Both the position numbers and the translations under genes were made by a program. 64,000 nt of DNA from Actinomycetes bacterium. GTDB lineage: Bacteria > Actinomycetota > Acidimicrobiia > Acidimicrobiales > Microtrichaceae. The stretch's first letter is position 1, and the number at the start of each line of letters is the position of its first letter. Location of the stretch: positions 95,691-159,690 of the forward strand of contig JAAEPF010000033.1 of assembly GCA_024222295.1 (NCBI GenBank), given 5' to 3'. Below are positions 40,701 to 62,030 of the stretch, in pieces. Below the pieces are notes generated by a model. The model saw only the letters and a list, made by a program, of their open reading frames with translations, did no database searches and had not been told where the DNA came from.

Positions 40701-42117
40701 CGGTGCCGGGCATCTCATAGACGCGGTTCTGTTGTCCATCGGGGGTGTAGCCGCCGGCGTCCATCGCGGCGGCTGCATCGAGCCAGTATTGCGGGAGGTG
40801 CTCATCGCGCTTGAGGTTGCGGTCGACCATCTGGCCCGCGAACAACGCCCACTGATTGAGGCATACCAACAGCAGCAGCGCACCGGACAGCGGCAGTCGC
40901 CAACCCGGCCAACGCCGGGCCACCGCAGCGAGGCCTGCTGCCAGCAGCACCGCGAGCCCGAGGGCGATGAGCGGTAGGGCACGCGGCGTCGAGCGGAATG
41001 CGAGGCCGGAATCCGTGGTGGTCCAAGCCTTGAACACCGCGCCGGCCGGCGTTGACCGCTCCCACGGATGCGCCCCGACGCCGAGTACGAGTCCGACGGC
41101 GACCAGCGCCGCGAAGTACCCGCGGTTGGCGAAACGGGTCACGAATCCCGACACGACGGCGAGGCCCGGAACAGTGAAGCTGAGGGCGAGCGCCCACGGG
41201 TTCTCGACCATTCTCTCCGCGGGGGCGATCCAGGCTCCGAGCGCGTCGCGGCCGTAGAAGAACCAGTACCCGAGGCCGCGTAGCAACTCGGTGCTGAGGG
41301 CGGCGTTTGCGACCGTGTAGTAGGTCTCGGTGTAGCGCAGGATCGGTATGCCGAAGGCGCCCTGCACGGCCAGCCCTGCGACCCACCACAGCGATGTGAT
41401 CCCGGTCAGCAACGTTATGCGTAGTCCGGCGGCGAGGGCGGTGCGGAACGCGACCTCGCGGCTCACCCACACGGCGTGGGCCATCCAGAGGATCGGGCCC
41501 GCCATCACGAGGATCAGGGAGGTGGCGTTGACACCGCCCACTGTGAGGGTCACCAGGGCGAACACCGCCGGCCACCGCCAGCCGCCCCGTCGCATGCACC
41601 GCGATGCGAGTCCGATCAGCCATGGCAGGCCGGCGAAGGGGAGCAGGATCACCGAGATGCGTGCGCCATAGTGCAGCAGGTAGGGCGACAGCGCGTAGGC
41701 GAACGCGGCAACGGTGAGGCCCGGGCCCTGCCAGCGCAGTTCGCGCATCATGAACCGCACACCCATGCCGGCTGCGAAGATGATCGTGCCGAGCCAGAGA
41801 CGCTGGGCCACCCAGTCGGGCACCCCGAGGGTGTCCCAGAACCAGTACCAGGGGCCCATCGGCCACAGGTACCCGATGTTCTGGTGGGTCACGGTGCCAA
41901 GGCCGATGTTCGTGTCCCACATGGACGCGGCCCGGCTCAGCAGCCGGGCAGGATCCAGGTACAGATAGGTCTTCGTGTCGGCACCGATCTCGCCCGGTGC
42001 TGTGACCAGCAGGGGCAGGTACGCGACCAACGCCATGAGGACGCTGCCGATGGCGGGGCGGCGGATGAAGCCGAGGGGCCGCTTGGGGGTCGCCTCGGCG
42101 GGCGCATCGGTGCTCAT
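37693..42117 (-). CDS. AftD-like alpha-(1->3)-arabinofuranosyltransferase family protein
   Basis: A 1474-residue GT-C membrane protein, matching mycobacterial AftD in length and layout. The N-terminal 430 residues are about 11 helices, with APGEIGADTKTYLYLDPARL in the first outer loop as the likely donor site, then GYLWPMGPWYW. A long extracellular part contains two discoidin-like carbohydrate-binding modules (about 735-850 and 965-1100; each has ALDGDPSTAW or ALDGDPGTAW), and helices return at about 1296-1455. AftD adds arabinofuranose from polyprenyl-phosphate donors in mycobacteria; here the sugar is unproven. A -10 box lies 12 nt before ATG. Confidence 0.85.
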   Translation of the reverse strand: MSTDAPAEATPKRPLGFIRRPAIGSVLMALVAYLPLLVTAPGEIGADTKTYLYLDPARLLSRAASMWDTNIGLGTVTHQNIGYLWPMGPWYWFWDTLGVPDWVAQRLWLGTIIFAAGMGVRFMMRELRWQGPGLTVAAFAYALSPYLLHYGARISVILLPFAGLPWLIGLASRCMRRGGWRWPAVFALVTLTVGGVNATSLILVMAGPILWMAHAVWVSREVAFRTALAAGLRITLLTGITSLWWVAGLAVQGAFGIPILRYTETYYTVANAALSTELLRGLGYWFFYGRDALGAWIAPAERMVENPWALALSFTVPGLAVVSGFVTRFANRGYFAALVAVGLVLGVGAHPWERSTPAGAVFKAWTTTDSGLAFRSTPRALPLIALGLAVLLAAGLAAVARRWPGWRLPLSGALLLLVCLNQWALFAGQMVDRNLKRDEHLPQYWLDAAAAMDAGGYTPDGQQNRVYEMPGTDFASYRWGNTVDPITPGLIDRPFVARELIPYGTANSADLLNAWDVPLQEGSFDPATLQPIAQLLGIGTIAHRGDLQYERFRSPRPDIVYADLLAAAGLEEAGEFGTATANQASDALRLDDELYFGHEIGLPDAPAVSLFDVGDPRPIARTVSAATPTLLAGDGAGIVAWARTGALDPDRAIFYPASFAEDPEELEALIATDGAQLVVTDTNRRQGRRWGSVRENDGYTERSDEEPLDPDPGDNRLDKFPGAGNESYTVSEQLGGATVSASGYGNPVSYTPSDRAAAALDGDPSTAWKVAAFDEPRGEFIEIDLDEPVTASSVRLLQRQPVPQRRITEVELAFDDGDTVTVPLGEASWAPPGELVEFGERTFSTLRITISDLNVPRLDRYLGMADAGFAEIEIEGVEPVVEVIRPPTDLLDAAGEDSIDHPLTYVFTRRSANPSEVVVSDEEPAMLRWVDGPLGRSYTAFGSARMSTTADEATIDALIGMTPPDEGGVQVTSSTRLAGDLRSRGASALDGDPGTAWQTPVNDVVGATLEVVAPEPFAFDGFDLTVRNDPLHSLPARLAVSVDGAEPTSVDVPRIGVTEGAELATETVRVPFTSTEATSIRITIEEIQEANSSDWFSGFPTVLPVGIAELGLPVQLDVPPADTPLDPTCRTGMLEIDGLDVPVSIDGTVGEALELSLMPWAACTDVAIPAGSTLLRTEPGSTSGFDLDQVVLASAAGGSAGPDTLVEGPAPVDPPPATRAGTPSRLRWEYDVEGATEPYWVVLGQSYSPGFEAEANSAVDLGEPTLINGYANGWRVAPDEVGSDATISVQWTPQRLVWIALVASAIGVLVCIAMVIRPLRRWGGDALRAAPRSMSPALVDPLGSEGAAMSAGAAAAAALATGVVTWLLVGWPVGVAVGLLSAAALALPRAQPLVRIAGIVLYGAAAGYVVAKQWRNGYLVDFNWMNQFEVTHAWTLAAVALLTVDPLVSWLRRNAAAAGATEADSADRAAADSE

Positions 42118-43481: not shown

Positions 43482-43535
43482 GCCGAGTGTCCGGCTGCGG
43501 GTTTCGATGGTCACGGACCCGCCGAAGCCCACAAG

Positions 43536-43541
43536 TAGCAT
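43536..43541 (+). promoter_or_regulatory. -10 box TAGCAT, leaderless
   Basis: TAGCAT is 7 nt before the GTG at 43549. This decides the start of the acyltransferase over an ATG 14 codons upstream. Confidence 0.6.
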
Positions 43542-43548
43542 CGGCGGC

Positions 43549-44730
43549 GTGGTGCAGACCGCCGCGGTACGGCGGCCGACGAAGTTCTCCTACGTGCCCG
43601 CCCTCGACGGGTTGCGTGGCCTGCTGGTGTTCCCGGTCGCCCTGTTCCACTTCTCCATCACCGCGGGGTGGGACCCGACCCGGGTCTATGCGCCCGGTTC
43701 GTTCTTCGCCCCGTCCACGTTCTTCGCGCTGTCCGGCTACCTGATCACGTCGCTGCTGCTCGCCGAACGCGAACGCTCCGGCGGGATCGACGGACGGGGA
43801 TTCTGGTCACGCAGGTTCCGCCGCCTGTTGCCATCGTCGGTGGCCGTGATACTCGCAGCGTCGGTGCTCACGGCGCTCTTTGCCGACCTCTGGGGGCCCC
43901 TGCCCGGCAGCGACGTGGCCGCCGGCTTGTTCAGCCTGTCGAACTGGCAGGCGATCCAGCTGGCGGACGCGGGGGAGACCTGGCGCCTCCTCGGCCCCCT
44001 CGGTGTGTTCTGGTCGCTCGGCCTCGAGGAGCAGTTCTACCTGGGCCTCTTCACGGTCGTGATAATCGCAAGCGCGCGGGCCAAGGCGATGACGGGCTGG
44101 CTCGTCGGCTTGCTCGTGGCCGTCGGCGTGTGGTCGATAGCGTCTCTCGTTCTCATCGACTCCACCCCGCAACGCGAGTACTTCGGCACGGACACCCGCG
44201 CCTCGGAGCTGGTGGCCGGCTGCCTGCTGGCGGTGTGGGTGCACCACAAGGGCCTGCCGAAGGGTTGGGCGTGGAAGTGGGTGGGGGTCGCGTCGGTGGT
44301 CGCGGCCGTACTCGCGTGGACGTTCGTGCACGAAGATGACGCCTGGGTGCTCGGTGGTGGGCTCGCACTGTTCTCGATCGTGAACATCGGGCTGATCATC
44401 GGCGCCAGCGTCGCCGGCCCCATGGTCAGCGCGCTGTCCTTGGGTCCGCTGGTGTGGCTGGGGCGCCTCAGCTATCCCGTGTACCTGGTGCACTGGCCGA
44501 TGGCGCTGATCATGCAGCCCGAGCGGATGGGGATGGTGGGCTGGCCGCTGATCGTCGTGCGCTTCGCTGCCTCGCTCCTTGTCGCATGGGGCCTGTACCG
44601 ATTCTTGGAACGGCCCCTGCGCACCTCCCCGCTGGCGCAATGGCCCAAGGGCTTCGTGGTGTGGGCGGTGCCGGCCGCCACGGCACTCGTGCTGGCCATC
44701 TGGGTCTCCGGTTGGGGTTGGCCGGGATGA
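43549..44730 (+). CDS. Acyltransferase-3 (AT3/OafA-type) membrane protein
   Basis: A 393-residue integral membrane acyltransferase with about ten helices. VPALDGLRGLLVFPVALFHF carries the R-x10-H motif needed in AT3 enzymes; FFALSGYLITSLLL and FWSLGLEEQFYL follow. AT3 proteins move acetyl or other acyl groups across the membrane onto sugars. No SGNH domain is attached, so transfer would be direct or need a partner. Its stop overlaps the start of the next, double-AT3 gene (ATGA), so the two are translationally coupled. Confidence 0.88.
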   Translation: MVQTAAVRRPTKFSYVPALDGLRGLLVFPVALFHFSITAGWDPTRVYAPGSFFAPSTFFALSGYLITSLLLAERERSGGIDGRGFWSRRFRRLLPSSVAVILAASVLTALFADLWGPLPGSDVAAGLFSLSNWQAIQLADAGETWRLLGPLGVFWSLGLEEQFYLGLFTVVIIASARAKAMTGWLVGLLVAVGVWSIASLVLIDSTPQREYFGTDTRASELVAGCLLAVWVHHKGLPKGWAWKWVGVASVVAAVLAWTFVHEDDAWVLGGGLALFSIVNIGLIIGASVAGPMVSALSLGPLVWLGRLSYPVYLVHWPMALIMQPERMGMVGWPLIVVRFAASLLVAWGLYRFLERPLRTSPLAQWPKGFVVWAVPAATALVLAIWVSGWGWPG

Positions 44731-47048
44731 CCGCTGCGACAGCCCCTCTGACCGCACCGCTGCGCCGGCCCCGCGAGCGCGCCTTCGGGCTCGACGTCAC
44801 CCGCTCCATCGCAGCGGTCGGAGTGCTCATCACCCACGTTGCGTTCGCCACGGGCGTCGTCAACCCGCAGCGGTGGTCGTCTCCGCTGCGTGACATTCTC
44901 CCCCGGCTCGATGTCGGCGTGACCATCTTCTTCGTTCTGTCCGGTCTTCTGGTGAGCCGTCCGTTCGTGCGCAAGGTGCTGGCATCCTCGCCCCCTCCCG
45001 ACACCCGTACCTACGCAGTACGCCGCCTGTCGCGGGTGTACCCCGTGTACTGGGTGGTCCTCGCGGTCACCCTCATCACGGTCGGTCGCGGCTCGTGGGG
45101 AGAGGTGCTGGCCGATGTGCTGCTGGTGCACATCTACGTGCCGGGATGGGCGATCGGCCCGATCACGCAGAGCTGGACGCTCGCGACCGAGATCGCCTTC
45201 TATGCGTTCATGCCCGCCTGGTTCGCCCTCCAGTCGTGGTGGCTGGACCGACGAGGCACCACGGAGCGGGCTGCGAGGGCCCGCTGGGTGGCCTGGGGGC
45301 TCGTCGGGTGGTTCTTCGTTGCGCTCGCCTGGCGAGCGGGGGTCGTGATCGGCACCGATCAGTTCGACTTCACCGCTCCGGAAGCGGTCGACACGCGTGG
45401 GGCTTTGCTGACCTGGCTTCCGGGGCACCTGGACGCCTTTGCCGTCGGCGTCGGACTCGCACTGTGGCACGAGACCGGACGTGCCGAGCCACTGAGTCGC
45501 ACCTGGCGCCTCGTCAGCTACGGGATCGCAGCGGCGGCACTGTGGGTCGTGTCCACGGGGATCGACCTGCCACCTGTGTTCACCGGTTTCGATGGTCGAC
45601 AGACACACCTTCGCCACTTGCTGTTCCTGGTCGTGGCGGCCGGCGTGGTGGTCCCTTCTGCGCTGGCCATGGATTCCGGCCCGCTGGACAGCCGCGGCGT
45701 CAAGGTACGCCCCGCATGGCGGCCCCAGCCGTGGGTGTCGAGGCTCGCTGCCGGAGCGGCTCTGGCTTCCTACGGCGTGTACCTGTGGCACCAGTGGGTG
45801 ACCCACGAGCTGTTCCTCGAGCGCGGCCTGATCGAGTTCCAGGCGCCGTTCCCGAGCGTGCTCGCCGCAGTTCTGGTCGGCTCAACCGCCCTTGCGGCCC
45901 TGACCTACTGGTTCGTCGAGCGGCCGGCCACAACGATCGCCACCGGCAGGGGCGGGGGCACTCCGGCAGCCCAACCCCGCCAGCTCGGCCCGCAGCCCCG
46001 CCTCGACGGGTGGCGCGGCCTTGCCATCCTCGCCGTGCTCGGCACACACGTCGTGTTCCTCGACTCCGGCTCTGACCGGTTCGCATTGCGCGGCGGCTTT
46101 CTCGGCGTCGACGTGTTCCTCGGACTGTCCGCATTCCTGATCGCAGCGGTGCTGTTGCGAGAGTTGGACCTGAGCGAGGCTCGAACGGGTGAACCGGGCA
46201 TCGACGGCCACGACTTCGCCCGGCGCCGAGCACGCCGACTGTACCCACCGCTCGTGGTGTTCCTCGTCGTTGAGGGCATTGTCGCGGTGGTGCTCGGCAC
46301 CCGTCTGGGCGAGCAGCTGTTCCAGAGCCTCTTGGCGCTCACCTTCACCGCCAACTGGCAGCTCAGCTGGGGGTCACAGCCGCCGTTCGAGCTCGTGCAC
46401 CTCTGGTCGCTGTCGCTCGAGGCCCAGTTCTACCTGCTCATGGCGGTGGGTCTCTGGGCGGCCCGGCGTCGCTTGACGCGGGCCGATCGCATCGTGGCGT
46501 TGCTCACGATCGGCGCGGTCCTGGTGTGCCTGTGGCGGCTGTGGCTGTACCGCCACGGCGTGGAGCTCGAGGCGCTCTATGAGCGCACCGACGCCCGCGC
46601 GGACTCGATGATGCTCGGTGTGGCCGCGGCGCTGGTTTGGCGCAGTCGGCTCGCGAGCGACCGCGCCATCCGCCTCGTCGGGGCCGCCGGAGCGGTCGTG
46701 CTGGGCATCGCTGTCGTGCTGGCCACACCGACATCACCCTGGCTGTTCGAGGGTGGTTTCACCGTGATCGCCGCTTGTGCCGCCGCCGTGGTGGCCGCGG
46801 CCGCCACCGGGTCAGGAGTCGTGGCCGCGATCGGAGGTTGGAGCCTGTTCAGGCACCTGGGAGCGATCTCGTACTCGCTGTACCTCTGGCACCTGCCCAT
46901 CTACCTGTGGACGGTGCGGGCCATTCCCGACAGCCCACTGGGCGTGAAGATCGCGGTGGCGGTTCCCGCGTCGCTCCTGGTGGGCTGGCTGTCGTACCGA
47001 CTGGTGGAGGTCAGGGTCCTGGCGGCCTGGCGTCGACGCACACCCTGA
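44727..47048 (+). CDS. Tandem AT3-AT3 double acyltransferase
   Basis: 773 residues holding two complete AT3 units. The first (about residues 15-395) has DVTRSIAAVGVLITH and SWTLATEIAFYAF; the second (about 425-770) has LDGWRGLAILAVLGTH and LWSLSLEAQFYLL. Each keeps the R-x10-H motif and about ten helices, so both may be active. The link is Thr/Gly/Pro-rich (ATGRGGGTPAAQPRQLGPQP). A single AT3 is normally 350-400 residues, so this is a genuine fusion in one frame. ATG 44727 overlaps the upstream stop. The last 38 bp overlap a convergent gene. Confidence 0.85.
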   Translation: MTAATAPLTAPLRRPRERAFGLDVTRSIAAVGVLITHVAFATGVVNPQRWSSPLRDILPRLDVGVTIFFVLSGLLVSRPFVRKVLASSPPPDTRTYAVRRLSRVYPVYWVVLAVTLITVGRGSWGEVLADVLLVHIYVPGWAIGPITQSWTLATEIAFYAFMPAWFALQSWWLDRRGTTERAARARWVAWGLVGWFFVALAWRAGVVIGTDQFDFTAPEAVDTRGALLTWLPGHLDAFAVGVGLALWHETGRAEPLSRTWRLVSYGIAAAALWVVSTGIDLPPVFTGFDGRQTHLRHLLFLVVAAGVVVPSALAMDSGPLDSRGVKVRPAWRPQPWVSRLAAGAALASYGVYLWHQWVTHELFLERGLIEFQAPFPSVLAAVLVGSTALAALTYWFVERPATTIATGRGGGTPAAQPRQLGPQPRLDGWRGLAILAVLGTHVVFLDSGSDRFALRGGFLGVDVFLGLSAFLIAAVLLRELDLSEARTGEPGIDGHDFARRRARRLYPPLVVFLVVEGIVAVVLGTRLGEQLFQSLLALTFTANWQLSWGSQPPFELVHLWSLSLEAQFYLLMAVGLWAARRRLTRADRIVALLTIGAVLVCLWRLWLYRHGVELEALYERTDARADSMMLGVAAALVWRSRLASDRAIRLVGAAGAVVLGIAVVLATPTSPWLFEGGFTVIAACAAAVVAAAATGSGVVAAIGGWSLFRHLGAISYSLYLWHLPIYLWTVRAIPDSPLGVKIAVAVPASLLVGWLSYRLVEVRVLAAWRRRTP

Positions 47049-50898: not shown

Positions 50899-53013
50899 TC
50901 AGGACCTGTAGCGCTCGAGCAGGGCCGGGCCCAGCCACGCGGCGACGACGTCTGTGCTCGCCTCGCTGAAGTGCACCCCGTCGGGTCGCAGCGCGGGGTC
51001 GAACTCACCGCCGGGCTGGGAGTTCATCCATGCGGCGATGTCGAGCACCTCGACCTCGGGGCGGGCCGTGTCGAGCGCGGCCAGCATGTCGTTGTAGGCA
51101 TCCGCGCGGGCGGGGTCGGCCTCGCTGTAGGGCGGATGCCCCATGAAGATCACCGAACCCGGCACCGGGTCCCAGTGCGGTGAGTTGGCCCACAGAACGG
51201 GTTGACCGCCGGCCGCGAGCACATCCACGAGGTGGCTGAGCTCGCCGAAGAGGTACTCGTCGTAGGCCTGGTTGCCGATCCTGGTCCAGCGGCGGAACCC
51301 GGAGGGCTTGCGGTCGGTGACGTCCCACATGCCGCCGGCCACCAGCACCAGTTCGGGGTCGAACGACGTGAGCGCCTCGGTGAGCATGGCGTCGCGGTTG
51401 CGGCACTCCTGGGACTCCGTGCGACGTATGCCCACACCCTTGTTGGAGCCGCCACGCCCGAACGCGCAGGCAGGAATGGTCGCGTCCATCACTGCGGCTC
51501 CGCCGTCGGTCAGCGCCCAACGCTGCAGCCCGATGAGGATCGACTCCGCGAACGAGTCGCCCACGACCATGATCCGCATCGGAGGGGGTGGGGGTGCAGC
51601 GGTGGTGGCGACTGCCGTGTCCGGCTCCGAAGGGGTGGCCGGAGCGACCGTGGTCGTGGGGATCGCCACGTCGACGCCACTGCCGAGGGCGATCACCTCG
51701 GAGCGCTCTGGTTCGGGCAAGGTCGCGACGAGTCCGATCACGATGGCGAAGGCGGCGAACATCGCTGCCCAACCGCGGTAGCCAAGCAGCACGCGTCGGC
51801 TCCGGATCGGACGCTCCAGCAGCCATAGCGAGATGGCCGCGAGGACCAGCGTGAGACAGACCTGCACGGCGAACGCGGCCGTGGGGCCGATGCCGAGTCG
51901 GTCCGGGCCCAGCCACCAGATGATCGGCCAGTGGAAGAGGTAGACCGCATATGAGACCCGGCCGAGGGCGGCCAGTGGTCTCCTGGACAGCAGCCAGCGG
52001 GCCGCACCACGGGGCTGAACGACGGCCACGAGCAACGCCGCCACCACCACGGCGTGCAGGGTGAGGCCTCCGCGGTACAGCCATGAGGCCGTTATGGGGG
52101 TGAACGCCCACGCTACGAGGAGCGCGACGAGGGCCAACGGCGCCAGGTGCCGCATCCGGCGCTGGCCTCGGGGTGCCATGGCGAAGCGGCGCCCCAGCAG
52201 CGTGGCGGCGACCGCTCCGACGGTCATCTCGGCGAGGCGGGTGTCGGTGCCCATGTAGGCCCTGTTGTCCCAGCTGCCGGCGGAAACGAGCACCATCCAG
52301 GCTGTCGCCCCCACGGTCACAGCCGTGAGCAACAGCGTCAGGTCGCGCCGTCGGCGACCGGGCCTGCCCCAGCCGGTACGGGCCACGAGCAGTGCGGCCA
52401 GCGGCACCAGGACGTACCACTGCTCCTCGACCGCGAGGCTCCACACGTGACGCAGCGGCGATGGGTCGCCGGCGAACATCGCGCTGTAGTCGGACCCGTC
52501 GAACACGAACCGCCAGTTGGCCACGTAGAACAGAGAGGCAAGGGCATCGCCGGGCAGGCTGGCGAGCTGTGAGGCGGTGCCGATGATGGGCGTGAGCAGG
52601 AGTACGGCCGCGATGGTCACGAGGACCGCCGGCAGCAGGCGACGGGCCCGGCGCTCCCAGAAGCCGGCCAGCGACACGCCGTCGGTGCTGCGTCGTTCTT
52701 CGAGCAGCAGGGAAGCGATCAGGAAGCCCGACAGGGTGAAGAACGCCGATACACCCAGGTAGCCACCCTTGGTGACGGGCTCCAGCCAGCCGATGCCGTT
52801 GGCGGCAGCCCCGTGGTAGAGCACCACCGCCGCGACTGCGATGCCGCGCAGTCCGTCGAGTGCCGGCTGGTGCGGAAGCGATGTGTGCGCCGGCGCGGGC
52901 GACACCGCTGCCGGCTCGTCGCCGGGCGCGTCCTTACCGTGCTGCGGATGCGCTTTCCCGACATCGTCATCGACCAGTGGGTCGACGTCGGTGCGCTCGT
53001 CGGTGGTGCTCAC
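50899..53013 (-). CDS. AT3-SGNH fusion O-acyltransferase (OafA-like)
   Basis: 704 residues: an AT3 domain with about ten helices (residues 45-390), one further helix, a Thr/Pro/Ala linker (about 440-478), then an extracellular SGNH domain. The AT3 part has LDGLRGIAVAAVVLYH (R-x10-H) and the SGNH part has Ser487 (VVGDSFAES) and Asp678-x-x-His681 (DGVHFSEA), so both look active. In OafA-type enzymes acyl groups pass from the AT3 domain to SGNH and then to the glycan. GTG 53013 was chosen because the sequence further upstream is antisense to the next gene. Confidence 0.88.
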   Translation of the reverse strand: MSTTDERTDVDPLVDDDVGKAHPQHGKDAPGDEPAAVSPAPAHTSLPHQPALDGLRGIAVAAVVLYHGAAANGIGWLEPVTKGGYLGVSAFFTLSGFLIASLLLEERRSTDGVSLAGFWERRARRLLPAVLVTIAAVLLLTPIIGTASQLASLPGDALASLFYVANWRFVFDGSDYSAMFAGDPSPLRHVWSLAVEEQWYVLVPLAALLVARTGWGRPGRRRRDLTLLLTAVTVGATAWMVLVSAGSWDNRAYMGTDTRLAEMTVGAVAATLLGRRFAMAPRGQRRMRHLAPLALVALLVAWAFTPITASWLYRGGLTLHAVVVAALLVAVVQPRGAARWLLSRRPLAALGRVSYAVYLFHWPIIWWLGPDRLGIGPTAAFAVQVCLTLVLAAISLWLLERPIRSRRVLLGYRGWAAMFAAFAIVIGLVATLPEPERSEVIALGSGVDVAIPTTTVAPATPSEPDTAVATTAAPPPPPMRIMVVGDSFAESILIGLQRWALTDGGAAVMDATIPACAFGRGGSNKGVGIRRTESQECRNRDAMLTEALTSFDPELVLVAGGMWDVTDRKPSGFRRWTRIGNQAYDEYLFGELSHLVDVLAAGGQPVLWANSPHWDPVPGSVIFMGHPPYSEADPARADAYNDMLAALDTARPEVEVLDIAAWMNSQPGGEFDPALRPDGVHFSEASTDVVAAWLGPALLERYRS

Positions 53014-53045: not shown

Positions 53046-54920
53046 CTAGGGCGCGGGCCGGGCCTGCCCAGTCGGGGCGAGGAAGACGGCCGTCGGAAGG
53101 CCGATGGCCGTGTATTCGTCGATGAGCTCGTCGATCGCCGGGCCGACCCGCGGATCCGAGCGGACTGCCCACTGGTTGAGTGGGAGCTCTGCCACCAGCT
53201 CGGCTGCGTCCGCCTGCTCCAATGCGGCCTCGATCTCGGTGGCGAGCGCTTCCTGGCGTTGGATGTCGGCGTCGCTTCGTGGGTCCCGATAGGCGATCTC
53301 CTCGGCATCCGGGAGCGCCTTCCAGAGGCGGATGGCGTCGCCGGTCACCACCCAGATCGCCGCATCGGCGGTGCCATCCGCGATCACACGGTGCGGGCGC
53401 ATCTCGGCGGACAGACGGCGGTCGACCCCGACGTGCACGCCACGCCGCTCGAGTTCGGACAGGACTGCAGTGCCGATGCCACCGAAGGCGAGGGGGTCCT
53501 CCCAGCGCAAGACGAACGTGTCGCCACCGGGCAACGCCTCGAACGCAGCGCCGACCAGGTGATCTGCCACATCGGACAGCTGTGCAGCAGGCACATCGGG
53601 GTCGGAGAACGCAGCCGCAGTCGCGAGTGACCCGACTCCCAGCACCGTCACCGCTGCGAGACGCGCTCCGTGGGGCCATCCGGCGGGCCGGTCGCCGCTC
53701 AGGTTCAGCCACGCAGTCCAGGCGATCGCCACCATGGTGGCGGTCACGAGGACCGCGAGCCAGATAACCAGGTAGCCGAACACCTCGCCCGGGATGCGCG
53801 ACGACGCGACCAGGGCGGCGAGCCATCCGGCAGCACAGACCAGTTGCAGTTGTGCTGCCGCCCGCAGTCTGCGGGTGGCCCTGCCCTGCCAGGCAACCCA
53901 TGCTGCGCCCGCCCAGACACCCAGGAACAGCAGCGTGCCGAGACCGACGCCCCGGTCGGTGGGGCGGGGGTCGTCGAGCAGCAGCCAGGGGGTGCGCGGG
54001 TCGGACCATGCGGCGACGAGCTTGATGGCACCTGCGACTCCGAGTTCCGGCTCCGCGTCGGTCTGCTGGCTGTACGCCGAGACCATGATCCCGATGTTCC
54101 CGGGGTCCCCGGTGAGCTGTTCGTACAGTGGCGGCAGCCACATCACGGCGGTGAGGCCCGCTGCCACAGCCACCGGCCAGAGAACCGCGCGCCACCGGCC
54201 CGCCTCGGCGCCCCGAGCCCGCGGTCCGCTCCACCACAGGCCCACCAGGGCCGTCGCGCCCAGAGTTGCCACGAGTGGGGTGTATCCGAAGTGTGCGTGC
54301 ACGCAGTAGGTACCTGCGGCGGCCACGAGCACGATCGCCCAGCGACTGCCGTCGATCACCGCCCACACCGCCATGACCATGCAGAGGAAGGGCATCACCG
54401 TGAACCACGGATTCCACGGCTCGACGAACGCCGACGGTCCGAGGCCGGCGATCAATCCGAGGGCTCCGAGGGCCAGCAACACGGTGAGGGTGTCACCAGC
54501 GCGCCGCCACACGACTGCGAGAGACCCAACCAACCAGGCTGCGGCTGTTGCTGCAACGGCGGCCGAGAGGCCCGCCGCTGAGCGGCCGAGCAGGGCATAG
54601 ACGGGGTACATCGCCCACCATGCCGAGGGGCCGGGGTGGGAGCTCACGTCGGTTTCGGTGCGCAGCCTTCCCACGGCTCCGAGTGATGGCGGATGTGCCC
54701 AGAAGTCGCGGACACGCAATTCGGCCTGCGCGAACTCGCCGACCGGAGTCCAACCCCGCGCGCCGAGGGCGATAGCTGCAACCAGCAGCGGAAGTGTGCA
54801 GGCGGCGCAGCAGAGCGCCAGTACCCACCACCGGCGGCTGACCGCTCGACGACGCACCGCCGCATCGCGCACGACGGCACCTGCACCTCGGTCGGTGGAG
54901 GATTCGGTGCCGGAGGTCAT
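53046..54920 (-). CDS. Multi-pass membrane protein, GT-C-like glycosyltransferase
   Basis: 624 residues with about eleven membrane helices, then an extracellular alpha/beta C-terminal domain of about 170 residues. The first outer loop has LRVRDFWAHPPSLGAVGR and SSHPGPSAWWAMYPVYA; the D-F and HPGP features are typical of GT-C enzymes of the actinobacterial DUF-type. Exact specificity is unknown. ATG 54920 (TSGTESS start) is preceded by TAGATT 10 nt upstream on the minus strand. It lies next to the AT3-SGNH gene, 32 bp before its GTG, and both probably share a transcript. Confidence 0.72.
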   Translation of the reverse strand: MTSGTESSTDRGAGAVVRDAAVRRRAVSRRWWVLALCCAACTLPLLVAAIALGARGWTPVGEFAQAELRVRDFWAHPPSLGAVGRLRTETDVSSHPGPSAWWAMYPVYALLGRSAAGLSAAVAATAAAWLVGSLAVVWRRAGDTLTVLLALGALGLIAGLGPSAFVEPWNPWFTVMPFLCMVMAVWAVIDGSRWAIVLVAAAGTYCVHAHFGYTPLVATLGATALVGLWWSGPRARGAEAGRWRAVLWPVAVAAGLTAVMWLPPLYEQLTGDPGNIGIMVSAYSQQTDAEPELGVAGAIKLVAAWSDPRTPWLLLDDPRPTDRGVGLGTLLFLGVWAGAAWVAWQGRATRRLRAAAQLQLVCAAGWLAALVASSRIPGEVFGYLVIWLAVLVTATMVAIAWTAWLNLSGDRPAGWPHGARLAAVTVLGVGSLATAAAFSDPDVPAAQLSDVADHLVGAAFEALPGGDTFVLRWEDPLAFGGIGTAVLSELERRGVHVGVDRRLSAEMRPHRVIADGTADAAIWVVTGDAIRLWKALPDAEEIAYRDPRSDADIQRQEALATEIEAALEQADAAELVAELPLNQWAVRSDPRVGPAIDELIDEYTAIGLPTAVFLAPTGQARPAP

Positions 54921-54985
54921 CGCGATGGCGAATCTACGTGCTCCGGGCCTGGTTCCGGGACACCGGCGGGGGTCGGCGGCTGTGC

Positions 54986-54991
54986 GATGCT
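54986..54991 (+). promoter_or_regulatory. -10-like box GATGCT, leaderless
   Basis: GATGCT lies 8 nt before the GTG at 55000. The first base departs from the TAnnnT pattern. Confidence 0.42.
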
Positions 54992-54999
54992 TGTGCGCC

Positions 55000-56658
55000 G
55001 TGGCAGACGAGAGCATCCCCGGGCCCATGGACCGCCGAGACGCGGTCGGCCTCGGCATCGTCGCTGTCGCGCTCCTGCTTCCCGTCTGGGGCCTGATGCG
55101 CTACCAGGGGCCTCCCATGGAGGAGGGATTCATGCTCGTGTTCCCCGAGCAGATCCTGCAGGGACAGGTGCCGCACCGCGACTTCCTTCACCTCTACGGT
55201 CCGGGCGCCATCTACGCGCTGTCGGCCATCTACGAGGTCTTCGGCACGCACCTGTACGTGGAACGCCTGGTCGGCCTCCTGCAGCACGCGGCGATCGCGT
55301 ACTCACTGTGGTTCCTGCTGCGGCCCTTCGGCCGCACGATCGCGACCGCCGGTGCGGTCACGTCGGTGGTGATCCTGATCGGCCCACTCGGGCTGTCCGC
55401 CATGGCATGGAACGGCGCACTGGCACTCGGGCTGGCGGCCCTGGCCGTCGCGTCCGGCGCCTCGAGGCGTGAAGAGGGCTCGCCGGCGCGCAGGAACCTG
55501 CTCGCCCTGGCCGGTGTGCTGGGTGCCCTCGCGCTGCTCTACCGGCCGGACCTCGTGCTGGCAGTACTGCTCGGTCTGGGTGCATGGTGGCTCCAGTTGC
55601 CCAAGGGGCAGCGGTCACCTCTCGTGTGGGGCTTCCTGGGCGCATCCCTGCTGTGGATCGCGCACCTGCTGCGGTCAGGCATCGGGGAGTCGATCGAGGG
55701 CATGTTCCTCGAACCGGTCTTCGAACTACGGGGCGGCCGGTCGCTGCCGATCCCACCCAGCTGGTCAGAGGTCGACGGATTCCTGCAGCGCGCCGGCACG
55801 CTGCGAACCAGCGGCTGGCCCTTGCCCATGCCGGGCATCTCCCAGCAGATCACAATCTGGTTCTGGCTCGTTCCCCTGTCGATCGCGCTGGTGCTGTTCG
55901 CCGCCTGGAAGCTGCGCAAGCGGCAGCCCGCGTCAGTGAGCGCCGGTTCCTACTGGCCCGCCGCGCTGTTCGGCGCGGCCCTGCTGCAACAGGCGATCCA
56001 GCGCCCCGACACCGCGCACCTGTCGTGGGTCACCGGTGTGACGTTCCCGCTAGCGATCGCTGCGATCGCGATAGTGATTGCCGAGTACCGCCCGGCGACA
56101 TCGGCAGCTGTTCGGGTTGCGTGGGGGATCGGTGCGGTCGCTGCAGTGCTCGTGCTCGTGATCCCGTTCTACCCGGTTCGCACGTACACGGATCTTGTCG
56201 GCCAGAGCTTCGGCGTCAACAGGTTCGGGTTCCCGATCGAGCGCGAAGGTCGCACATTCCCCTTCGGCGACGCGGACGGTGCGGCCGATGCACAGACCGT
56301 GGTGGATGAACTGGACGCGCTGGCGGAGCCGGGTGATTCACTGGTCGTGGGACCGCTCGACCTGTCGAGGGCCAACTACAGCGACGCGTTCTTCTACCAC
56401 TTGTTCCCCGAACTCGAGGTGGGTACAAGGTTTATCGAGATGGACCCGGGCATAGCGGACGCCGAAGGCAGCGGCCTCGCTGAGGAGGTGGCCGGCGCCG
56501 ACTGGCTGATCCTGTCGGATGCGTGGTCGGGTTGGGACGAGCCCAACGACTCGAGGATGGGGCGATCGCAGGCCGCCAACGACGTCGTGCGCGAGGAGTT
56601 CTGCGTGGTGCTCGATGCCGGAACCTTCCTGCTCTACCGAAGGTGCACCCCCACCTGA
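55000..56658 (+). CDS. Multi-pass membrane protein, GT-C-like glycosyltransferase
   Basis: 552 residues with about ten helices. The first outer loop MEEGFMLVFPEQILQGQVPH continues into RDFLHLYGPGAIY; the E-G-F, H-R-D-F and Y-G-P-G elements mark a GT-C-type active site. A C-terminal extracellular domain (about 390-552) contains DSLVVGPLDLSRANYSDAFF and ADWLILSDAW. The GTG start is supported by the -10-like box; the frame is open upstream only because of the divergent gene. It stands 66 bp before the mannose synthase gene. Confidence 0.75.
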   Translation: MADESIPGPMDRRDAVGLGIVAVALLLPVWGLMRYQGPPMEEGFMLVFPEQILQGQVPHRDFLHLYGPGAIYALSAIYEVFGTHLYVERLVGLLQHAAIAYSLWFLLRPFGRTIATAGAVTSVVILIGPLGLSAMAWNGALALGLAALAVASGASRREEGSPARRNLLALAGVLGALALLYRPDLVLAVLLGLGAWWLQLPKGQRSPLVWGFLGASLLWIAHLLRSGIGESIEGMFLEPVFELRGGRSLPIPPSWSEVDGFLQRAGTLRTSGWPLPMPGISQQITIWFWLVPLSIALVLFAAWKLRKRQPASVSAGSYWPAALFGAALLQQAIQRPDTAHLSWVTGVTFPLAIAAIAIVIAEYRPATSAAVRVAWGIGAVAAVLVLVIPFYPVRTYTDLVGQSFGVNRFGFPIEREGRTFPFGDADGAADAQTVVDELDALAEPGDSLVVGPLDLSRANYSDAFFYHLFPELEVGTRFIEMDPGIADAEGSGLAEEVAGADWLILSDAWSGWDEPNDSRMGRSQAANDVVREEFCVVLDAGTFLLYRRCTPT

Positions 56659-56712
56659 GCGCCCACACCAGCGACGCAACCACCGTGCTTCTGACTGGTG
56701 GGCGTCGGCCGG

Positions 56713-56718
56713 TACTGT
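56713..56718 (+). promoter_or_regulatory. -10 box TACTGT, leaderless
   Basis: TACTGT is 6 nt before the GTG at 56725 and fixes the start against a GTG-type frame 9 codons longer. Confidence 0.6.
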
Positions 56719-56724
56719 TGGGCG

Positions 56725-57540
56725 GTGTCCACGGTCATCGTCGTACCGACCTACCAGGAGGCGGGAAATGTCGAGAAGCTCCTGCGCGAGGTGCGCGCGG
56801 TCGAGCCCGACGTGTCGATCCTGATCGTTGACGACAACAGCCCCGACGGCACCGGTGAGATCGCCGAGAAGGTCGGTGCCGAGATCGGCGGGGTCGAGGT
56901 CCTGCACCGTGCACGCAAGGCAGGACTGGGAGCCGCCTACCGCCACGGGTTCCGCCATGCCCTCGACGCGGGCCACGACGTGATCGCCCAGATGGATGCG
57001 GACCTCTCACACGACCCCGAGGTCCTGCCGGACCTGCTCGGTGGACTCCGCGACGGCATCGAAGTGGTTGTGGGGTCGCGCTACGTGCCCGGCGGCTCGG
57101 TGCCCAACTGGACGTGGTTCCGGCGCACGCTGTCGCGGCTGGGCAACACCTATGCACGGCGCATGCTGCGGCTGTCATTCAATGACGCAACCACCGCGTT
57201 TCGTGCCTATTCCGCCGAGGTGCTGGAGCGCATCGACATCGACGGCACCCGGGCCAACGGGTACCTGTTCCAGATCGAAACGGCATTCCGGCTGTCCGCG
57301 GCGGGCGTACGGGTCGCAGAGATCCCGATCACGTTCCTCGACCGCGTCGAGGGGGCCTCGAAGATGGCCGTGGTGCGCACGATGGTCGAGACCGAGCTGC
57401 GCGTCACCTGGTGGGGCCTGTCGCTGAGGGCGCCGGTCATAACTGGACGATTCAGGGAGACGTCGGCGGGACGTTACCTTCACTCGAGGGTGCGACCGAC
57501 AGGTACCCCGGTCGCGGGCCCGCCACCAGGCGATGGCTGA
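56725..57540 (+). CDS. Polyprenol-phosphate mannose synthase (Ppm1/DPM1-like GT2)
   Basis: 271 residues. STVIVVPTYQEAGNVEKLL, LIVDDNSPDGTG, GLGAAYRHGF, and the metal motif MDADLSHDPEVL are those of dolichol- or polyprenol-phosphate mannose synthases; TTAFRAYSAEVL and GYLFQIETAFR follow. It makes polyprenyl-phosphate-mannose on the cytoplasmic face, the donor for GT-C mannosyltransferases. There are no membrane helices, as in the soluble catalytic domain of actinobacterial Ppm1. It overlaps the next gene by 8 bp, so the AT3-SGNH-SGNH protein is made alongside it. Confidence 0.88.
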   Translation: MSTVIVVPTYQEAGNVEKLLREVRAVEPDVSILIVDDNSPDGTGEIAEKVGAEIGGVEVLHRARKAGLGAAYRHGFRHALDAGHDVIAQMDADLSHDPEVLPDLLGGLRDGIEVVVGSRYVPGGSVPNWTWFRRTLSRLGNTYARRMLRLSFNDATTAFRAYSAEVLERIDIDGTRANGYLFQIETAFRLSAAGVRVAEIPITFLDRVEGASKMAVVRTMVETELRVTWWGLSLRAPVITGRFRETSAGRYLHSRVRPTGTPVAGPPPGDG

Positions 57541-60430
57541 CGAGTTCCCGGGTCCAGAGTCGCAGCCAGCCAGCAGCGACCGCGAGCCCGTCGTACGCCG
57601 CAGGAACCGCGACAGACAGCCGGGTGGCCACGTGCCACTTGGCTACGAGCCGGCGCTGGATGGCCTCAGGGCCGTGGCGGTGCTCGCGGTGCTCTTCTTC
57701 CACGCCCGTTTCGACTGGGCCAAGGGCGGCTTCCTCGGCGTCTCGGCCTTCTTCACCCTGTCCGGGTTCCTGATCACTTCGCTGATGCTGCAGGAGTGGC
57801 GACGATCGGGGGCCATCAGCGTACGCGGGTTCTTCTCACGGCGCTTCCGCAGGCTCCTGCCGGCTTCCTGGTTCACCCTCATGCTCGTCGTCACGATGGG
57901 GTGGCTCGGGATCTGGAACACCTCGCAGCTGCGCGACCTGCGCGGTGACGTCCCCTGGGCGATCGCAGAGCTGGCCAACTGGCACTTCATCTTCCAGGAC
58001 CGCACATACGGCGCTCAGTTCGAAGCTCCATCGCCTATCGAGCATTTCTGGAGCCTGGCGGTCGAGCAGCAGTTCTACCTGATCCTCCCGGTTGTCGTGT
58101 TGTGGGCGCTCGGCGCATCTCGACAGCGCTCCGTGGCCCGGGGCTCGCGCACCCGTGAAGGCCCCTCGGCCACCCCGCTACGCCTCCTTGTGACCGTGCT
58201 GGTGATCGCCGGCGCGGCGTCAGCGGTGCTCAACGGCGTCCTGGCCCGGGAGTCGGTGGCGCGGGCCTACTTCGGCACCGATACCCGCCTCGCGGAACTC
58301 GTGGCGGGAGCGCTGCTGGCGTGTGTCGGCCTGCGCCTCATCCGCGGCTCCACAACCCGGCGGCGGCGGATCTTCGACGCGCTGGGATTCATTGGCCTCG
58401 CCGCATCGGCCGTGCTGTGGTTCACAGCCACGGTGGAGTCGGGGTGGCTGTACCCGTGGGGCCTGCTCCTGACGGCCGGGGCGAGCGTTGCACTGATCGT
58501 GGGGGCACTGCAGGGCGGCTTGCTCGCACAGGCACTTGCGCTGAGGCCGATCGTGGCGCTCGGGCGTATCAGCTACGGCGTCTACCTGTTGCACTGGCCC
58601 GTGTTCCTCTGGCTGACTCCCACGAGGGTGGGCTGGGGCCAGTGGCCGCTGTTCGCGCTTCGCATGGCCGTCACGCTGGCCGGCTCGGTGGTGATGTTCA
58701 AGCTGCTGGAAATGCCGATCCGCAGCGGTCCCAAGGTGGTCGGCCGCTTCGCAGCCCGAGCGGCGCTTCCCGCGGTCGCACTGATCCTGCTCTCGACGTT
58801 CCTGGTCACCTCCGACCTGCCGGAACCCTCACGCCTCGAAGCCGCCGCCGCGGCCCCGTCCACCACGACGACACTGCCTCCCGCTCCGACGAGGGTGGTG
58901 GTGCTGGGAGACGAGCTGGCCGCGTCCTGGGACCTGCTGGACGGCGAGGGGGGCACCGACGCCCACCCCCTCGAGGTGAAGGTCGCATCGGCTCCCGGTT
59001 GCGGGCTCGCGCTCGGCGGCTACGTGCAGTTGAGCAGCGGGGCCGTGGAAGGCGACACCGACCGGTGCGGAGAGGTCAAGGAGCAGTGGTTGGCCTTCGT
59101 CGCCCAGGAGCAGCCCGACGTCGTGATCGTCGACTCGGCACTGCGGGACGTGTCGGATCGTCGTCTCGCGCCCGAGGCGCCATGGGAGTCGATCGGGATG
59201 CCCGGGCTCGACGACTTCCTGCTCACCGAAGTGACGGGGTTCGTGGAGCAGTTGTCCTCGGGCGGTGCTGCGGTGCTGCTGGCGACTGCCCCCCACATGA
59301 ACGACACGCGGCCGGCGCCACCGGCCGTCGCGCCCGTCCTGCCCGCCGATCCCGAACGCGCGGGCCTTGCTGTGCGGGCTTCCGAGGCAGCGGCGCAGGG
59401 TGCTCCGGGCAACGGGTACACGGCCAATGACCCAGCGCGGATCGACCGCTGGAACGAGATCATTCGTGTGGCAGCAGAGGCCACGGGTGCAGGAATCCTC
59501 GAGGCAGCCGACGCCATCGCGGCATGGCCCGGCGGCGAATTCGACCCCCAGCGCCGTGCTGCCGACGGAGTCGGCCTCACCGAGGTCGGCATGTCGCAGT
59601 TGGCGGCAACGACTGCGTCGGACGTGGCCGGGGCCCGCCCACCGCTGGAGAGGCCTGATCCGGCCTCTCAGGTAGCAGCAGAGACACCTCTGCCCCCGGC
59701 GCCCCCGGTCACTGCGCGCAGGACCGCCCCACCGGGCCGCACGGCGGATGTTCTCGTGGTCGGCGACTCGGTTGCCTTCAACATCGGCTACGGGCTCACC
59801 GAGTGGTCGCGTGGCAACAGCGGCGTGCGGGTGCAGTCCGCGGGTCAGCTCGGTTGCCCGATCGCGCGTGGCGGCCAGTACCGGTTCCTGCGCGATCTGG
59901 AGTCATTCGGTCCCGAGTGCGACTGGGCCACCCAGTACCCCGAGTGGGTGGCCTCGAGCGACCCGGAGGTGGTCGTTCTGACCTCCGGCATCTGGGAGGT
60001 CGTCGACCGTCGCCTGCCCGGTGACGACCGGTTCCGCAACATCGGCGACACGGTGGTCGACCGCTACCTGCTGGCGGAGATGCTGTCGGCGATCGACACT
60101 CTCTCCGCACGCGGCGCCACAGTGGTCCTTCTCACCTACCCGCACTTCGAGGCCGGCAGGGACCAGGGCTACACCGGCCTCCCGGAGTCGGATCCTGCAC
60201 GCGTGGACCGCCTCAACGAGATCATGGCCGAGGCCGTGGCGCTGCGACCGGGAGTGGCGACGCTCGTCGACTTCCAGGCCTGGCTCGCGGCGCAGCCTGG
60301 AGGTGAACTCGACCCCGCCAAGCGCGACGACGGCTTGCACTTCCGTGACGACTACTCGCTGCTGATCGCCGACTGGCTCGGCCCGCAGGTAGCCGAGGTC
60401 GCGCGCACCGGCGCACCGTCGCCGGGCTGA
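57533..60430 (+). CDS. AT3 fused to a degenerate and an intact SGNH domain
   Basis: 965 residues. An AT3 domain (about residues 40-390) has LDGLRAVAVLAVLFFH with R-x10-H. After a Thr/Pro linker a first SGNH-like domain follows, with VVLGDELAAS, where the nucleophile Ser is Glu461, and ADGVGLTEVG, where the catalytic His is Gly681; Asp678 remains. After another Pro-rich linker (about 705-735) an intact SGNH domain follows, with Ser746 (VVGDSVAFN) and Asp933-x-x-His936 (DDGLHFRDD). So the middle unit is a predicted pseudoenzyme. The second SGNH resembles the one in the protein at 50899. ATG 57533 overlaps the mannose synthase. Confidence 0.88.
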   Translation: MADEFPGPESQPASSDREPVVRRRNRDRQPGGHVPLGYEPALDGLRAVAVLAVLFFHARFDWAKGGFLGVSAFFTLSGFLITSLMLQEWRRSGAISVRGFFSRRFRRLLPASWFTLMLVVTMGWLGIWNTSQLRDLRGDVPWAIAELANWHFIFQDRTYGAQFEAPSPIEHFWSLAVEQQFYLILPVVVLWALGASRQRSVARGSRTREGPSATPLRLLVTVLVIAGAASAVLNGVLARESVARAYFGTDTRLAELVAGALLACVGLRLIRGSTTRRRRIFDALGFIGLAASAVLWFTATVESGWLYPWGLLLTAGASVALIVGALQGGLLAQALALRPIVALGRISYGVYLLHWPVFLWLTPTRVGWGQWPLFALRMAVTLAGSVVMFKLLEMPIRSGPKVVGRFAARAALPAVALILLSTFLVTSDLPEPSRLEAAAAAPSTTTTLPPAPTRVVVLGDELAASWDLLDGEGGTDAHPLEVKVASAPGCGLALGGYVQLSSGAVEGDTDRCGEVKEQWLAFVAQEQPDVVIVDSALRDVSDRRLAPEAPWESIGMPGLDDFLLTEVTGFVEQLSSGGAAVLLATAPHMNDTRPAPPAVAPVLPADPERAGLAVRASEAAAQGAPGNGYTANDPARIDRWNEIIRVAAEATGAGILEAADAIAAWPGGEFDPQRRAADGVGLTEVGMSQLAATTASDVAGARPPLERPDPASQVAAETPLPPAPPVTARRTAPPGRTADVLVVGDSVAFNIGYGLTEWSRGNSGVRVQSAGQLGCPIARGGQYRFLRDLESFGPECDWATQYPEWVASSDPEVVVLTSGIWEVVDRRLPGDDRFRNIGDTVVDRYLLAEMLSAIDTLSARGATVVLLTYPHFEAGRDQGYTGLPESDPARVDRLNEIMAEAVALRPGVATLVDFQAWLAAQPGGELDPAKRDDGLHFRDDYSLLIADWLGPQVAEVARTGAPSPG

Positions 60431-60431
60431 C

Positions 60432-61946
60432 TCAGCGCCTGGGAGTCACCGGCGCGTCGCGGCCGCTGGAACCGTTGTCGGCGGTGCCGACCCAGTCCGC
60501 CGGATCGCTGTCCTGTTCGTGGTAGTCGGCCTCGACGTTGACCGACCAGATGTCGTGGTCGGTGCCCTCGGTGATGTTGCTGACAGTGAGCATCGCCGTG
60601 AGCATCGAGTGGTCCTGGTTGTTGTACTTGTGCATCCCGTTGCGCCCGATCGGGTGGACGTTGGGTACCTCGGTGGTCAGCCATTCACGCAGTACCTTCA
60701 CCTTGGCCTGGTAGCCCTCGTCGTACACGGGGTACGCCTTGGGCATGCGCACCACGTACCCGGCCTCGACCGTGGCCGGGTCCGTCAGGCCGAGCAGGCC
60801 CAGTTCCTTCTTGGCGAGCTCGATCAGGTCGGTATCGTCCTTGGTCCACATGCCGTCGCCCTCGAACACGAAGTACTCGAGTCCGAGGCAGGCGCGGCCG
60901 TCCTTGACCATGTAGGGAGACCACTGGCCGAAGTTCTGGATGCGGCCGACTTCGACGTCGGGGGAGTGGATGTAGATCCAGTTGTCCGGGAAGCCGTCCT
61001 TTTCGGGGACCACGAGGGCAACCGTGAGGAAGTCCCGGAAGCCCAGGCCCTCTGCGGCCTCGATCACCTCGGCCGGTGGCGGGGGATCGAGCACCTTGAC
61101 CAGCGTGGCGAACGGCATCGAGGAGATCACCTCGGCCGCAGGGTGCACCGTCTCGTTGCCGTCGGGGTCGACTGCGACCACCGCGGTGGCACCGCTGTCG
61201 TCGCGGCGCACGGACGTGACCTGCTGGTTGAAGTGGACCGGTGAACCCTTCTCGTCCACGATCTCCGCGCAGCGCTCCCACATCATCCCGGGGCCGTACT
61301 TGGGGTACTGGAACTCCTCGATGAGGCTGGTGACCTGCTTGGAGCCGTCGCGTCGGCCGAACAACTTGGAGCGGATCGGCTCCCAGACGGCCTGGAACAG
61401 TGACATGCCCTTGATCCGCTGCGCCCCGAAGTCTGCTGACAGCTCCGATGGGGACACGCCCCAGACCTTCTCGTTGTAGGTCTTGAAGAAGTGGTCATAG
61501 AGGCGGCGGCCGTAGTCGGCCACCACATATCCCTCGAGGGTGCTCTGGTCCTTCGGCGGACGGACCTTCGCCCACAGGTACGACACGACGCAGCGGACCG
61601 CCTCGATGAAGCCCAGGTTGCGCAGTGCGTTCATGGGGCGGATCGGATAGTCGTAGTACTTGCCCTGGTAGTAGATGCGGCTCATGCGGGGTCGCGTGAG
61701 GAACTCGTCGTCTTCGAGGATCTCGTGCCACAGGGCTTCGACCGGCTTGACCTTCGTGAAGAAGCGATGGCCGCCGATGTCGAAGCGCCACCCCTCGCGG
61801 GTGGCGGTCTGCGAGATGCCGCCGACGACGTCAGTGGCTTCCACGATGTCGCAGGTGCGTCCGGCCTTGGCCAGCTCGTACGCGGCGGTCAGCCCGGCAG
61901 GTCCGGCGCCGATCACGACGATGTTGTCGTTGGGGTCTTTCGTCAT
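60432..61946 (-). CDS. FAD-dependent oxidoreductase, UDP-galactopyranose-mutase-like or protoporphyrinogen-oxidase-like
   Basis: About 504 residues. NIVVIGAGPAGLTAAYELAK is the FAD Rossmann motif, followed by EATDVVGGISQTATREGWRF and DIGGHRFFTKVKPVEALWHE, then YYDYPIRPMNALRNLGF. The family is often found in surface-polysaccharide clusters and includes flavoenzymes that alter sugars or oxidise intermediates. The exact reaction is unknown. ATG 61946 is preferred; a GTG at 62009 would add 21 residues. It converges on the AT3-SGNH-SGNH gene with a 1-bp gap. Confidence 0.83.
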   Translation of the reverse strand: MTKDPNDNIVVIGAGPAGLTAAYELAKAGRTCDIVEATDVVGGISQTATREGWRFDIGGHRFFTKVKPVEALWHEILEDDEFLTRPRMSRIYYQGKYYDYPIRPMNALRNLGFIEAVRCVVSYLWAKVRPPKDQSTLEGYVVADYGRRLYDHFFKTYNEKVWGVSPSELSADFGAQRIKGMSLFQAVWEPIRSKLFGRRDGSKQVTSLIEEFQYPKYGPGMMWERCAEIVDEKGSPVHFNQQVTSVRRDDSGATAVVAVDPDGNETVHPAAEVISSMPFATLVKVLDPPPPAEVIEAAEGLGFRDFLTVALVVPEKDGFPDNWIYIHSPDVEVGRIQNFGQWSPYMVKDGRACLGLEYFVFEGDGMWTKDDTDLIELAKKELGLLGLTDPATVEAGYVVRMPKAYPVYDEGYQAKVKVLREWLTTEVPNVHPIGRNGMHKYNNQDHSMLTAMLTVSNITEGTDHDIWSVNVEADYHEQDSDPADWVGTADNGSSGRDAPVTPRR

Positions 61947-62030
61947 CTGGGGCAGCCTGCGGCCGGGATCGGGGAGAGGGCCGGGCACCGAACGATACTT
62001 CTTCGGCACCCCTGTTTCGTAACCATCCCG

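Follow-up and report, generated by a model that had tools for sequence, protein, structure and literature searches.

An AT3 acyltransferase with a dead SGNH domain followed by a live one is encoded in a window of 64,000 nucleotides from an Actinomycetes bacterium of the order Acidimicrobiales (family Microtrichaceae; contig JAAEPF010000033.1, positions 95,691 to 159,690). The first SGNH domain (D1) has lost the nucleophile and the catalytic His and is, judged by its residues, a catalytically dead pseudoenzyme. The second (D2) retains Ser746, Asp933 and His936. D1 is under purifying selection and stays constrained despite its deadness, and the gene lies in a conserved glycosyltransferase neighbourhood. 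There is about an even chance that the protein is an O-acyltransferase of an envelope glycan, in which the AT3 domain would pass an acyl group to D2 while D1 would bind or position the acceptor without catalysis.

Domain Composition and Loss of Catalytic Residues

The gene lies on the plus strand at 57533-60430 and encodes 965 amino acids (aa). The AT3 domain is matched by PF01757 at residues 41-388 (E-value 1.2e-27; 97.3 bits against a cut-off of 31). The R/K-X10-H and RXXR motifs that mark the AT3 part (PMC7448272) are present as R46/H57 and R104/R107, invariant in 22/22 alignment rows. Helices 370-398 and 401-426 are present in the full-length model, the latter being a candidate 11th transmembrane helix. 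The AT3-fused SGNH family PF19040 was also matched, with its strongest stretch at 733-921, in D2. D1 of the window protein, taken singly, falls under the Pfam cut-offs, and thus little notice would be taken of it in a routine scan for domains. The two SGNH domains are homologous to each other, with 30% identity in BLASTP (E-value 2e-20) and a probability of 99.9% in the profile-profile comparison with hhalign (E-value 3e-35).

In D1, Glu461 (in VVLGDELAAS) occupies the nucleophile position and Gly681 (in RAADGVGLTE) the position of the catalytic His; Asp678 is kept. In D2, S746 is found in VVGDSVAF, and D933 and H936 in RDDGLHF. The nucleophile position of D1 is never Ser in 24 orthologues (E 10, Q 4, G 4, A 4, H 1, R 1). 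At the position of the catalytic His, 22 of 23 have another residue, although block V of D1 is hard to align in L025 and L026 (L numbers denote loci). In the exception, L027, the His is present but Ser is replaced by Ala, and the AT3 part has a broken reading frame. The Asn of block III is absent from D1, where Arg stands in 20/23; the aligned place in D2 is Trp in 23/23, so that this Asn is missing from the live copy as well. D2 keeps Ser, Asp and His in 23/23 orthologues. Having lost nucleophile and base, D1 should not carry an acyl group.

It is very improbable that D1 is active through an unusual residue, either Glu461 or a displaced Ser or His. Glu is the commonest residue at position 461 and Asp678 is largely kept (18/22 rows), which would fit such activity, but position 461 takes six residues, Gly and Ala included. 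No displaced replacement is well conserved in D1, the best Ser column being filled in 12/23 rows and the best His column in 11/23. A special part for Glu461, whether as nucleophile or as acid, and a rescue by displaced residues were both rejected on these grounds.

The first-pass annotation of this DNA had named the gene with its strand and coordinates, an AT3 part followed by two SGNH-like units, and the five residues at the two active sites; all of these are correct. Its proposals that D1 lacks nucleophile and base and that D2 is intact are borne out by the column conservation. Of the two outcomes that it named as refuting, neither occurred: residues 440-700 are SGNH-like, and, judged by conservation, no displaced Ser or His restores a triad. 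The special attention given there to Glu461 is not justified by the variation at that site.

Fold of D1

The AlphaFold2 model of D1, built with 23 orthologous rows, has a predicted local distance difference test score (pLDDT) of 95.8 and a predicted template modelling score (pTM) of 0.92. Its top Foldseek match among solved structures was 8gr2 (E-value 1e-6). VIA-align gave Z 17.5 for 8gr2 (191 residues aligned, root-mean-square deviation 3.2), Z 17.3 for 8tlb (PatB) and Z 15.9 for 6vjp (OatA). The top matches are GDSL/SGNH hydrolases or transferases, accompanied by some designed scaffolds (9hi4-9hi6). D1 is, on the strength of this model, a true SGNH fold, and the earlier suggestion that residues 440-700 are SGNH-like is sustained. 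In direct sequence searches of solved structures, D1 gave weak partial matches, mostly to GDSL proteins (best E-value 1.4e-4), and the best E-value for D2 was 0.024. In the full-length model search only the D2 part was covered, with Z 19.0 for 8tlb. The pTM of the full-length model is 0.53, and the mutual placement of the domains is not interpretable from it.

The peptidoglycan O-acetyltransferase PatB is thus among the closest solved folds for both domains. It differs in being a separate protein that works with the MBOAT protein PatA, and its identity to the domains is 14-16%. Its catalytic triad is intact.

Conservation and Selection of D1

The ratio of nonsynonymous to synonymous substitution rates (dN/dS) was calculated for the six closest pairs (L011/L013, L020/L022, L024/L023, L016/L018, L016/L019 and L018/L019). 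In this order it is 0.22, 0.15, 0.18, 0.14, 0.16 and 0.15 for D1; 0.12, 0.07, 0.10, 0.17, 0.16 and 0.18 for AT3; and 0.08, 0.18, 0.07, 0.10, 0.10 and 0.07 for D2. D1 is therefore constrained to a degree similar to AT3. It is hardly credible that D1 is decaying and has no function left. Its mean pairwise identity is lower than that of D2 (40% vs 56%), as expected from a relic, but the dN/dS of the close pairs led to the rejection of decay. Besides, D1 has 12 invariant columns in 23 rows and is retained in 24/33 genomes of the window's family.

Blocks I, II, III and V are better conserved than the remaining D1 (p 0.0013), yet among 244 positions ordered by conservation, 461 comes only 113th and 681 only 103rd. 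Conserved residues of D1's own, missing or different in D2, are E506, W519, R538, D539, W551 and N632. A binding site could have just such a form, with the pocket frame kept and the catalytic residues replaced.

Distribution of the Tandem

The presence of the tandem in 24/33 family genomes with the same dead/live polarity is more than chance. It was found as one match across nearly the whole protein in 19 genomes and in pieces in 5; G014, with a D2 piece only, was excluded. A scan of genome contigs with the D2 alignment yielded 21 loci, a set which overlaps the family genomes and is not independent of them (for instance, L093 and L012 have the same length, 3192 bases). Both domains lie in one open frame in 20 of these loci, and L092 begins inside D1. 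The contigs are labelled as Microthrixaceae (six), Acidimicrobiaceae (one), Bifidobacterium breve (one) and isolate IMCC26207, and the rest as Actinobacteria or Actinomycetota. The contig labelled B. breve (L100, CAMDLX010000014.1) has the tandem gene with its usual neighbours; the record is probably mislabelled.

In 397 genomes of the order, D1-profile matches stronger than E-value 1e-50 come only from the window's family, among the matches listed. At E-value 1e-15, the D2 profile matched 24 of 396 genomes of the phylum. Most of the D2-profile matches outside the family look like single-SGNH proteins by frame length, though few were opened.

OafA/OafB-type proteins are described with one SGNH domain (PMC7448272, PMC9833829, PMC9558356), in agreement with the first-pass annotation. 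The two domains of the window protein were counted as a variant of these studied members, not as grounds for exclusion. The wording "two SGNH" is absent from the text of PMC9833829 and PMC9558356, and "second SGNH" from that of PMC9833829. In the literature searched, with subscription papers and domain-architecture databases outside its scope, no title or abstract dealt with an AT3 protein having one dead and one live SGNH domain. The unfamiliar dead-live order noticed at first is real, but it is more widespread and varied than had been supposed.

Opposite Polarities of Silencing

AT3 open reading frames (149; 96 non-redundant) were sampled, and 94 have at least 150 aa after AT3. Of these, 93 were classified by their Ser and His columns, and L004 was left unclassified. 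The sample is biased to relatives, as many loci were fetched for resemblance to D1, D2 or L067. It contains 49 single live, 29 dead-live, 7 live-dead and 4 live-live proteins, one protein whose dead first domain keeps the His before a live second (L027), 2 dead-only proteins (L073, and L028, which is truncated at a contig end) and one live domain that the search had divided (L137). This biased sample contained no dead-dead tandem. Three proteins counted as single live (L036, L086 and L133) have an extra stretch with weak partial SGNH matches before the live domain. Another family, f53, is the source of 7/7 live-dead and 3/4 live-live proteins; the fourth live-live protein, L078, comes from yet another family. 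Dead-live proteins belong to the window's family in 22/29 cases; two of the 7 outside it are in f53.

Phylogenies were built from 125 domains with FastTree after removal of the four catalytic columns, and from 59 chosen domains with bootstrapping. D1 of the window's family forms one clade (ultrafast bootstrap (UFB) 99), inside which FastTree places the first domain of L070. D2 of the family forms a separate clade (0.997; UFB 100) beside the single live domains of L121, L122 and L129 from f53. The dead second domain of L067 groups with the live second domains of L109, L110, L123 and L070 (0.984; UFB 97). A third group consists of the dead second domains of L069, L083 and L126 (UFB 100). Support for deep nodes is weak, and L070's first domain shifts its place between the two trees. 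Together, these groupings indicate that silencing most likely happened at least twice, independently, in opposite copies.

Some other proteins have unusual compositions. Both SGNH copies keep Ser, Asp and His in L109, L110, L123 and L078, which are possible ancestral or relay forms. In L145 (627-3500, minus strand; the same gene as in L073), the sole SGNH domain of an AT3 protein is dead, with GDD for GDS and no His, and no second AT3 or SGNH open reading frame of at least 200 aa is present on its 7 kb contig. In L074, L075, L077, L079, L081, L086, L036 and L133, from other families, a strongly degenerate SGNH-like stretch precedes the live SGNH domain, in some of them detected weakly or partly.

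The tether from the AT3 end to the first SGNH domain has a median of 52.5 residues when this domain is dead (n=30) and 77 when it is live (n=60; Mann-Whitney p 3e-10, which overstates the difference as the proteins are not independent). The classes here are by Ser only and differ slightly from those above (the split L137 is live-dead here). Two of the dead first domains run against this trend, with tethers of 81 and 103 residues.

Gene Neighbourhood

The features are compiled in Table 1.

Table 1. Features of the tandem gene and its surroundings in the window.
Feature	Positions	Strand	Basis
AT3 acyltransferase with tandem SGNH domains, 965 aa	57533..60430	+	Translation of open reading frame, Pfam
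AT3 membrane domain, ~residues 36-400, R46-X10-H57 and RXXR (R104-R107)	57638..58732	+	PF01757; residues invariant in 22/22 rows
Predicted helix 401-426, taken as 11th transmembrane helix	58733..58810	+	Secondary structure of model
D1, dead SGNH domain, residues 446-706	58868..59650	+	Homology to D2, orthologue alignment, model, fold matches
Glu461 codon, nucleophile position of D1	58913..58915	+	Alignment
Gly681 codon, catalytic His position of D1	59573..59575	+	Alignment
D2, intact SGNH domain, residues 733-962	59729..60418	+	Pfam, alignment, fold match
Nucleophile Ser746 codon, D2	59768..59770	+	Alignment
Asp933 to His936 codons, D2	60329..60340	+	Alignment
GT2, polyprenyl/dolichyl-phosphate sugar synthase type	56698..57540	+	Pfam; 5mlz match; conserved neighbour
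Multi-pass membrane protein, GT-C-like (putative), start uncertain	54658..56658	+	Conserved neighbour
FAD/NAD-binding protein (PRK07208 type), convergent neighbour	60432..62009	-	Domain match; conserved neighbour
AftD-like arabinofuranosyltransferase, large, with carbohydrate-binding modules	37693-42117	-	PF11847, E-value 2.9e-88

The GT2 gene overlaps the start of the AT3 gene by 8 bases. Its product matches the dolichol-phosphate mannose synthase 5mlz (E-value 5e-32), with NCBIfam scores under the cut-offs. The putative GT-C-like protein has no Pfam or NCBIfam match. In the 21 related loci, the FAD-binding gene is downstream and convergent in 21/21, GT2 is upstream in 17/21, and the GT-C-like gene is present in 16/21. 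Missing neighbours are due to contig ends except in L106, which is without GT2. In L100, L105 and L107, another AT3 gene separates the tandem gene from the FAD gene. None of the three neighbours was seen at the f53 tandems L146 and L147. With its glycosyltransferases, the neighbourhood points to acylation of an envelope polysaccharide.

Elsewhere in the window, three further AT3 open reading frames are present (43507-47048, plus strand; 50902-53013, minus strand), one with a single SGNH domain with a live triad. The tandem protein has 18 matches in the whole genome. The AftD-like arabinofuranosyltransferase sits here in a non-mycobacterial actinobacterium.

Proposed Function and Comparison with Known Systems

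The AT3 domain would accept an acyl group from acyl-CoA in the cytoplasm, bring it across the membrane and hand it to Ser746-Asp933-His936 of D2, which would transfer it onto an envelope glycan. D1 would serve beside the membrane part as a non-catalytic module that binds or positions the acceptor. Acyl transfer by AT3 and D2 is expected from studied relatives; glycan binding by D1 and the identity of the acyl group and of the glycan are inferred.

The closest studied systems are OafA and OafB, and also OatA and PglI. They share the N-terminal AT3 domain with R-X10-H and RXXR and a C-terminal SGNH domain with Ser-Asp-His; their extra helix has a candidate counterpart in the window protein. OafA/OafB have one SGNH domain in the descriptions available, while the window protein has a dead one ahead of the live one. 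In OafA, the triad mutants S412A and H590A nearly abolish activity and D587A lowers it (PMC7448272). By analogy with these OafA mutants, D2 is expected to act as the transferase, a role closed to D1. Acceptor specificity in OafA is reported to come from the stretch joining helix 11 to the SGNH domain (PMC7448272), and D1 occupies the place of this stretch. How the acyl group passes from AT3 to the SGNH domain and to the acceptor is a question raised in a review of AT3 proteins (PMC9558356).

Other systems are similar in part. SucT, the mycobacterial succinyltransferase of arabinogalactan and lipoarabinomannan (PMC10503756), is the sole NCBIfam match of the tandem protein, by way of its AT3 part, and an AftD-like protein is also in the window. 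Membership in the SucT equivalog NF058601 was rejected, as the score is 70.3 bits against a cut-off of 1275 and covers the AT3 part only. AlgJ/AlgX and WssI/WssF resemble the tandem in having two SGNH units in one acetylation pathway, but both units are proposed to act in an acetyl relay (PMC10302187), whereas D1 is without a nucleophile. The OSK domain of Oskar is an inactive SGNH-like domain used for binding; it differs in being eukaryotic, binding RNA, and having neither AT3 nor a live partner domain (PMC12247748).

Several observations weigh against the proposed function. The residue corresponding to Asp39, essential in OafA, is Ser71 in the window protein. D1 changes faster than D2, with a median ratio of 1.41 over 253 pairs, and its dN/dS rises to as much as 0.88 among distant pairs (L019/L017), in which dS is near saturation. 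Part of the block conservation in D1 is structural, since GD, two Cys, R543, R636 and N641 are common to D2. The shorter distance of dead first domains from the AT3 end would suit a platform no less well.

Such a structural platform or spacer, docking on the AT3 surface or lifting D2 from the membrane toward farther acceptors, is a somewhat unlikely role for D1. It suits the location of D1 between the last helix and D2, the shorter tethers of dead first domains, and the modelling of OafB, in which the SGNH domain swings between AT3 and distant acceptors (PMC9833829). However, the dead copy is distal in the live-dead proteins and cannot be a spacer there, and a spacer has no need of a conserved pocket. 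The tether difference is not independent evidence because 22/29 dead-live proteins come from one family, and the two long tethers contradict it. The first-pass annotation had offered a spacer, a glycan-binding module and a regulator. These roles are not separable by sequence, but a pure spacer is disfavoured by the distal dead copy in another lineage and by the better conservation of D1 around the former pocket.

It is improbable that D1 pairs with D2 or regulates it by shaping or gating its active site, as is often the case in pseudoenzyme pairs. Homologous tandem copies often pack together, and the lack of dead-dead proteins among those classified agrees with pairing. On the other hand, no interface is supported by the full-length model, and single-SGNH relatives in the same genomes keep the triad and need no partner. 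The odds assigned to binding, platform and pairing are a matter of judgement.

Implications

The acceptor-binding role of D1 may extend to a wider scheme, which is put forward tentatively and is possible rather than probable. In AT3 proteins of Acidimicrobiales, the SGNH domain would have been duplicated in tandem, and one copy, the first or the second, would repeatedly have become a non-catalytic glycan-binding module, with the other remaining catalytic. The SGNH fold would thus provide its own carbohydrate-binding module. What surprises is that silencing is seen with two opposite polarities. Standard domain scans under-call dead/live tandem AT3-SGNH proteins. Single-live, live-live, live-dead and dead-live proteins make up a natural series in which catalysis is set apart from binding or placement, all in the same fold.

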